DNA from: Lentisphaerota bacterium
GTDB taxonomy: Bacteria > Verrucomicrobiota > Lentisphaeria > Victivallales > UBA1829
Length of the DNA: 64,000 nt
Assembly: GCA_015061915.1 (NCBI GenBank)
Contig: SUVR01000001.1
Span: forward strand, 71,976-135,975
Reading direction: 5' to 3'
The notes under the pieces: model-generated
What the model saw: the letters and a program-made list of their open reading frames with translations, nothing else
Databases searched by the model: none
Told to the model about the DNA's origin: nothing
Part shown: one piece after another, positions 28,770 through 30,020 of the stretch
Numbering within the stretch: the stretch's first letter is position 1
Layout of the letters: each line of letters begins with the position of its first letter
Position numbers and translations under genes: made by a program

Positions 28770-29954
28770 TCAGCTGAGCTTGACTTCCTTGCCGCCCTGT
28801 TCAGCGGACTGGTAGATACCGCACAGGATCTTCTGGATCATGAGACCGGCTTCGCCCGGAGCGCGCAGTTCGGTGCCCTTCAGGATCGCATCCACCCAGT
28901 TCTGCAGTTTGCGCTTGAACAGGTAGACCCAGTCGTGGTTCCAATCCGGCAGCAGGTGGTCCGGAGCCATGGTGATCATAGCACCATCCTGGTCCGTGAA
29001 GATCTTCAGGGGATCCCAGGTACAGCCGCCCTTGTCACCCATTGCGGTGAAGGTCCAGGTCAGCGTCTTTTCCAGATGTGCTGCAAAGGAGGATTCGATC
29101 TGCATGATCATGCCGTTATCGAAACGGATGTGACCGATCGCAAGGTCTTCCACCGTGTAGGTCTTGTAATCCCAGTTCGGCCAGTCGCAGGAAACGTTGC
29201 AGGGTTTGTTGCCCAGGTAGGTCCAGCAGTTACCCGTAGCGGCAACCGGTTTCGGGGAGCCCATGAAGTAGTGAGCCATTTCGATCACGTGAACGCCGAT
29301 ATCGATCAGCGGACCGCCGCCCTGAAGTTCTTTCTGTCCGAACACACCCCAGTTCGGAATACCGCGGCGACGCAGTGCCTGACATTTCACGAACATCAGA
29401 TTACCGAACTGACCGCGGGCTTTCGCGTTCATCAGGTAGTCCGTCTTGGTGTTGTAACGGTGCTGGAAACCAACTGCCAGCTTCACGTTGTTCTTCTTGG
29501 CGGCAGCGATCATCTTTTCACATTCTTCCGGAGTCATTGCCATGGGTTTTTCCACCATCACGTGGCAGCCGGCATTGGCTGCAGCAACGGCTGCGGGCAT
29601 ATGAACACCGTTCGGAGTACAGACGTCGATGGCATCCGGCTTCACTGCCTTGAACATATCATCCCACTTTTCAAAGCACATTTCCGGAGTCGCACCATAC
29701 TGCTTCTGGACGTATTCCAGACGATCCGGCTTGATGTCGCAGTAGCCCACAATTTCCACTTCCGGAATCTGGGAGTACGCTGCCATGTGGGTCGTGAAAA
29801 TACCGCCGCAACCGATAAATGCCACGCGCAGTTTCTTCGGAGCTGCAGCCTTCTTCACAGCTGCTTTCTTCGGAGCTGCCTTCTTGGCTGCTGTTGCTTT
29901 CGGGGCTGCTGCCTTCTTGGCAGGTGCGGCTTTCTTTGCTGTTGCTTTTGCCAT
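28770..29954 (-). CDS. Gfo/Idh/MocA-family oxidoreductase with histone-H1-like N-terminal tail
   Basis: A 394-residue protein. Residues 1 to about 41 are almost only K, A and P (repeated KKAA and APKK units), like a bacterial histone-H1 tail. The enzyme follows: NAD(P)-binding GxGGxxxxH stretch in RVAFIGCGGIFTTHM near 43-57, the EKPMAMTPEECE motif near 136 with the conserved EKP lysine, then the substrate-binding domain with GGGPLIDIGVHVIEMAHYFMG. These proteins oxidise or reduce sugars and inositols. No internal Met lies between tail and enzyme and AAGGAAAC precedes the first ATG, so the tail is probably made. DNA or RNA binding, or ribosome attachment by the tail, is speculation. Confidence 0.9.
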   Translation of the reverse strand: MAKATAKKAAPAKKAAAPKATAAKKAAPKKAAVKKAAAPKKLRVAFIGCGGIFTTHMAAYSQIPEVEIVGYCDIKPDRLEYVQKQYGATPEMCFEKWDDMFKAVKPDAIDVCTPNGVHMPAAVAAANAGCHVMVEKPMAMTPEECEKMIAAAKKNNVKLAVGFQHRYNTKTDYLMNAKARGQFGNLMFVKCQALRRRGIPNWGVFGQKELQGGGPLIDIGVHVIEMAHYFMGSPKPVAATGNCWTYLGNKPCNVSCDWPNWDYKTYTVEDLAIGHIRFDNGMIMQIESSFAAHLEKTLTWTFTAMGDKGGCTWDPLKIFTDQDGAMITMAPDHLLPDWNHDWVYLFKRKLQNWVDAILKGTELRAPGEAGLMIQKILCGIYQSAEQGGKEVKLS

Positions 29955-30020
29955 CTTTTTTGTTTCCTTGATTTTAGTGATTTGAGGTTAAAGTCACAAA
30001 ATAAAAATCTTTCTCTCCGT

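Follow-up and report, generated by a model that had tools for sequence, protein, structure and literature searches.

A histone-H1-like Lys/Ala/Pro tail on a putative DgpA-type sugar oxidoreductase of a Victivallis-related gut bacterium, and comparable tails on other proteins of its genome

Lysine-rich low-complexity regions are enriched in prokaryotic DNA-binding proteins (PMC6821194). In vitro, DNA is bound by peptides of the AlgP KPAA repeat, and the protein itself is found on polyphosphate (polyP) granules (PMC9239181). Enzymes of the DgpA type use bound NAD(H) to oxidize the 3-OH group of glycosides, and DgpA is apparently hexameric (PMC11239390). In the literature searched, whose coverage was partial, no report was found of Lys/Ala/Pro-rich (K/A/P) tails on sugar enzymes or in Lentisphaeria, which is weak evidence of novelty. 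The window analyzed here (the whole stretch of 64,000 nucleotides) derives from a gut bacterium that its relatives place in Lentisphaeria, order Victivallales, with Victivallis as the sister genus, and contains a gene in which such a tail precedes an enzyme, with the following features.

28770..29954, minus strand: complete gene of the tailed Gfo/Idh/MocA-type sugar oxidoreductase (394 aa, ATG to TGA)
29832..29954, minus strand: K/A/P tail, residues 1-41 (A19 K14 P4, net charge +14, predicted disordered)
28773..29831, minus strand: enzyme core, residues 42-394 (Rossmann domain and C-terminal alpha/beta domain)
29965..29969, minus strand: AAGGA, ribosome-binding-site-like, upstream of the ATG of the tail and kept in the congener
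29856..29858, minus strand: GTG codon 33, the sole other in-frame start codon before the core, without a Shine-Dalgarno-like sequence

The open reading frame, its composition, and its Pfam domains bore out the preliminary description of a K/A/P-rich N-terminus of about 41 residues fused to a complete Gfo/Idh/MocA enzyme. Residues 1-41 (MAKATAKKAAPAKKAAAPKATAAKKAAPKKAAVKKAAAPKK) were composed of A19 K14 P4 T2 V1 M1, and the likeness to histone H1 that had been ascribed to them holds in composition, with K/A/P at 37/41 positions and no D/E. The runner-up 41-aa stretch among all ORFs of the 64 kb window with 100 codons or more contained 24 K/A/P residues (mean 7.3, SD 3.1), and a chance origin of the tail was thus ruled out. 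The calculated pI was 9.0 for the full protein versus 6.6 for the core alone. In an AlphaFold model built with 55 sequences, the tail lacked secondary structure and had pLDDT values of about 41-57, and the core was mostly above 90. Residues 1-41 hence form a long, Lys/Ala/Pro-rich, acid-free, and predicted-disordered segment of the histone-H1-like type; a profile search (E 0.1) of the tailed oxidoreductase gave no match to a histone-H1-like Pfam family.

The core was assigned to the Gfo/Idh/MocA superfamily on the basis of a Rossmann domain (PF01408, residues 42-163, 105.6 bits against a cut-off of 24) followed by a C-terminal alpha/beta domain (PF02894, residues 180-393, 78.8 bits against a cut-off of 22.9). 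The EKP motif with its conserved Lys (E135-K136-P137), together with D218 and H222, was invariant in 55 relatives. DgpA1 and DgpA (PDB 9m3d and 7xr9/7xre) ranked first among both the structural and the sequence matches, with 34% identity and a TM score of 0.81 by query length, and DgpA-type glycoside 3-oxidoreductases were accordingly its closest relatives. By similarity, the gene product is best explained as a putative DgpA-type sugar oxidoreductase that is cytoplasmic and NAD-dependent.

The AAGGA sequence is located about 10 bases from the ATG of the tail. The preliminary description had correctly placed a ribosome binding site ahead of the tail and found no other ATG before the core, but it had overlooked GTG33, the only alternative in-frame start. 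Both the ATG and the ribosome binding site were kept in the congener G001. Comparison of G000 with G001 revealed 52 changes in the core and 3 in the tail, all of them synonymous, the protein being identical, and these 55 synonymous versus 0 amino-acid changes supported the view that purifying selection has acted on the predicted protein. Since the whole protein is identical and just 3 synonymous changes fell within the tail, the perfect conservation of the tail is uninformative when taken alone. Nevertheless, because the frame, start, and ribosome binding site are conserved, the changes between congeners are synonymous only, and relatives have a K/A/P tail that starts at an ATG of its own, the tail is almost certainly translated as the N-terminus of the enzyme, as had been claimed earlier. 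A mis-called start was ruled out by the conserved ATG and ribosome binding site and by the lack of a strong alternative start.

Among 55-59 relatives, the region preceding the Rossmann domain was short and usually ended in KK. Most orthologues (Lentisphaeria, Kiritimatiellae, and Hydrogenedentes; 61-69% identical) possessed another extension of 20-25 aa, reading SVSTKM... or SVGTxSLAM... and ending in KxYKGKK, with a net charge of about +2 to +4, which has the final KK alone in common with the K/A/P tail. The K/A/P version was found only in the window genus, Victivallis, and genus g5, with a length of 25-41 aa, or 11 in one relative (L187). It began at its own ATG and spanned 27 aa in Victivallis vadensis DSM 14823, 31 and 40 aa in two uncultured Victivallis, and 25 aa in g5, and the net charge of the tails stayed positive throughout, at +14 for the window protein and +9, +9, +11, and +4 for the others. 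In the phylogenetic tree, from which the g5 orthologue (L010) was absent, the window genus and Victivallis formed a clade with support of 100/100. L187 (77% identical) fell inside this tailed clade with its extension of only 11 residues, and thus partly matched the kind of close homologue without an extension that, according to the preliminary description, would speak against its reading. It is strongly supported that the K/A/P character of the tail has been kept in Victivallis, with drift in length and order. Conserved synteny was not observed beyond the genus; the window neighbours, which are MacA/MacB-like, secretin-like, and phosphoglycerate-mutase-like by sequence reading, do not travel with the gene in Victivallis.

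In the same-family genome G005, a single in-frame TAG was observed inside each of several otherwise intact and well-aligned genes (L010, L289, L301, L312, L340, L341, and L343). Matches of at least 50% identity contained about 8 in-frame TAG versus 1 TGA and 0 TAA, a count blurred by antisense matches, hinting that TAG may be read as a sense codon in the G005 lineage.

Tails of the same kind were surveyed in the rest of the genome by DNA pattern searches combined with reading of fetched genome stretches; the resulting counts are minimum values, as tails may be missed. A protein-query census of tails gave four places only. The survey identified at least eight other K/A/P-tailed proteins in the window genus besides RsfS and RpoD, two of them being further Gfo/Idh/MocA enzymes (L003 and L123). 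The tailed proteins are listed below.

L003: second Gfo/Idh/MocA enzyme, N-terminal tail
L123: third Gfo/Idh/MocA enzyme, C-terminal tail
L004: Zn-dependent polyol-type dehydrogenase, K/A/P tail
L038: DegT-family sugar aminotransferase, K/A/P tail
L103: GH2 enzyme, C-terminal tail
L101, 6188-8476, minus strand, and L105, 2878-5085 and 5283-7451 (tandem pair), minus strand: three related unknown-family proteins, tailed
L035, 1104-1670, minus strand: RsfS (ribosome silencing factor), N-terminal K/T/A tail
L104, 2818-4788, minus strand: RpoD, N-terminal K/A/P/E-rich region of more than 200 residues
L049: pyruvate phosphate dikinase, short tail

In RpoD, the pattern matches recurred at a spacing of 57 bases in about 10 repeats. 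The tail of RsfS was located at opposite ends in orthologues, namely at the N-terminus in the window genome and, as a K/A/T/P tail, at the C-terminus in genus g9 (L167 and L168); its similarity to HC2 (PF07382) was weak (20 bits, below the cut-off of 40). The unknown-family proteins of L101 and L105 (about 720-760 aa), which bear a tail in the window genus but mostly lack one elsewhere, showed no Pfam, NCBIfam, or PDB sequence match. In other Victivallales, K/A/P tails were seen on ribosomal protein S2-like, DksA/TraR-like, and further proteins (L159, L162, L164, L177, L182, L181, L170, and L180), all named by sequence reading.

Such tails are rare, since 392 kb (16% of the genome) sampled blind to tails contained no enzyme with a comparable one. 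Sugar-acting Pfam families accounted for 6 of the 12 tailed soluble proteins and 3 of the 12 had no family, against a base rate of 1 in 7 recognized sample proteins. With a base rate drawn from so few proteins, a preference of the tails for sugar enzymes is no more than suggested. A strict tail pattern applied to 61 related genomes gave 9 hits in the window genome, 8 in the congener, and 16 in G004 (0 in the control for each). The same pattern gave 0 hits in three g13 (Victivallis) genomes, where its incompleteness is evident from the missed V. vadensis tail. These pattern counts show that predicted K/A/P tails are used unevenly across the order.

Orthologues of the other tailed proteins provided insight into how the tails come and go. 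All the Zn-dehydrogenase orthologues (71-84% identity) begin at the core without a tail, as do most DegT orthologues (72-87% identity), with K/A/P tails in G004, G008, and G012, and the unknown-family orthologues outside the window genus (closest 80-82% identity) likewise begin at the core. Because orthologues at 71-87% identity begin at the core, the tails on these three kinds of proteins, which add 26-38 residues in the window genus, are lineage-specific. A recurrent, lineage-specific add-on would explain this distribution, and either repeated gains or a gain with many losses would fit. Between the congeners, the DegT tail differed by 1 substitution and 5 gap columns and its core by 2 substitutions in 416 columns, and the tails of the other tailed proteins likewise evolve faster than the cores with their composition kept.

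We propose, with a probability of roughly 45%, that the K/A/P tail is a non-specific polyanion-binding tether to the nucleoid, the ribosome, or polyphosphate, made multivalent through oligomerization. Such a tail would act by its composition, not its sequence, and would tether the enzyme electrostatically and non-specifically to nucleoid DNA, ribosomal RNA, or polyphosphate. Should the enzyme be hexameric like DgpA, six tails would confer high avidity, and tailed enzymes may be held together or concentrated at the polyanion surface; for catalysis, the tail should be dispensable. PolyP is a plausible partner because the genome encodes PPK1, and the ribosome is a possible one because tails of this kind are present on RsfS and, in relatives, on ribosomal protein S2. 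The preliminary description had suggested that the tailed oxidoreductase could be moonlighting, bound to the nucleoid or ribosome, or clustered through its tail. While the tail itself is real, the moonlighting reading was too narrow, several unrelated proteins of the genome being tailed. Since unrelated enzymes, RsfS, and RpoD of the same genome carry similar N- or C-terminal tails, a general tether or tag, or low-complexity growth that is tolerated, is a more likely reading than DNA moonlighting specific to this enzyme. The short tail of L187 (11 residues), the different low-charge extension of most orthologues, and the tails outpacing the cores count against the tether. A broader and unlikely version would be a general, easily gained tag of the window genus and some relatives, by which unrelated, largely sugar-metabolism enzymes together with RsfS and RpoD gather on one polyanionic scaffold (nucleoid, ribosome, or polyP granule) as a charge-coded membrane-less metabolic cluster.

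The serious rival to the tether is neutral low-complexity drift, in which expansion of GCN/AAR repeats at gene ends is frequent in the lineage, the tails are nearly neutral, and selection purges only the harmful ones. Though tentative, this account agrees with the tail lengths of 11 to 41 inside one clade, with the substitutions and small indels in the tails of other proteins whose cores hardly vary between congeners, and with the patchy tails of the DegT orthologues; the RpoD array at 57-base spacing further indicates that in-frame repeat growth is active in this genome. Drift is harder to reconcile with a composition high in K and A and almost devoid of acidic residues that is held across Victivallis, the window genus, and unrelated proteins, or with the 0 amino-acid versus 55 synonymous changes in the oxidoreductase. 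Nor is the growth indiscriminate, because the 392-kb tail-blind sample had no comparable enzyme tail.

The termini and sequences of the tails bear on the remaining explanations. Several tails begin with MAK, MAT, or MAA in AAR and GCN codons, and low-complexity regions are found in highly expressed proteins (PMC6821194), as would be expected if an A-rich, weakly structured 5' coding region with an ATG-GCA-AAA start lifted the translation or solubility of abundant enzymes. The C-terminal tails of the GH2 enzyme (L103) and of one Gfo/Idh/MocA enzyme (L123), however, would be of no help to initiation, making such an expression or solubility aid rather improbable. Initiation, moreover, needs fewer than 30-40 codons. 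Still more doubtful is an arm packing onto the neighbouring subunit, as in glucose-fructose oxidoreductase (GFOR): a 20-25-aa extension is indeed conserved in most orthologues, and the structural matches included GFOR precursors that are extended at the N-terminus, but the K/A/P tail has no hydrophobic residues, is disordered in the monomer model, and shares only the final KK with the orthologue extension. Terminal tags on several sugar-metabolism enzymes also resemble a cargo code for bacterial microcompartments. A profile search in which control profiles matched, however, detected no BMC shell protein (PF00936) in the window genome or 20 related ones (21 genomes), and microcompartment targeting, ruled out as far as shell proteins go, is extremely improbable.

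If the tails bind a polyanion, they would allow a bacterium to position its everyday metabolic enzymes in a simple and evolvable manner, with no need for shells or scaffold proteins. Natural controls would be available in several enzymes whose orthologues, at 71-87% identity, include both tailed and tail-less forms, and the question is open to experiment in the cultured V. vadensis DSM 14823, which has a tailed orthologue.

With DgpA and DgpA1 (7xr9, 7xre, and 9m3d), the window protein shares the core fold, sequence, EKP motif, and D/H residues; unlike it, those chains bear no K/A/P tail, since the alignment starts at its residue 40 and at their own residue 2-3. The chlamydial Hc1/HC2 proteins (PF07382) are similarly of low complexity and rich in Lys and Ala, but they are stand-alone DNA-binding proteins, and the window tail itself was without a match. 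AlgP and PhaF of Pseudomonas likewise carry a disordered, histone-H1-like Lys/Ala/Pro tail on a protein that has a different function (PMC9239181), whereas their tails are much longer (154 aa for the AlgP repeat region) and reside on proteins associated with granules rather than on metabolic enzymes. Topoisomerase I, Ku, and similar proteins, whose Lys-rich C-terminal tails raise non-specific DNA binding (cited in PMC6821194), resemble the present case in having a basic low-complexity tail on a folded enzyme; those enzymes already work on DNA, in contrast to the window enzyme, which is predicted to work on sugars.
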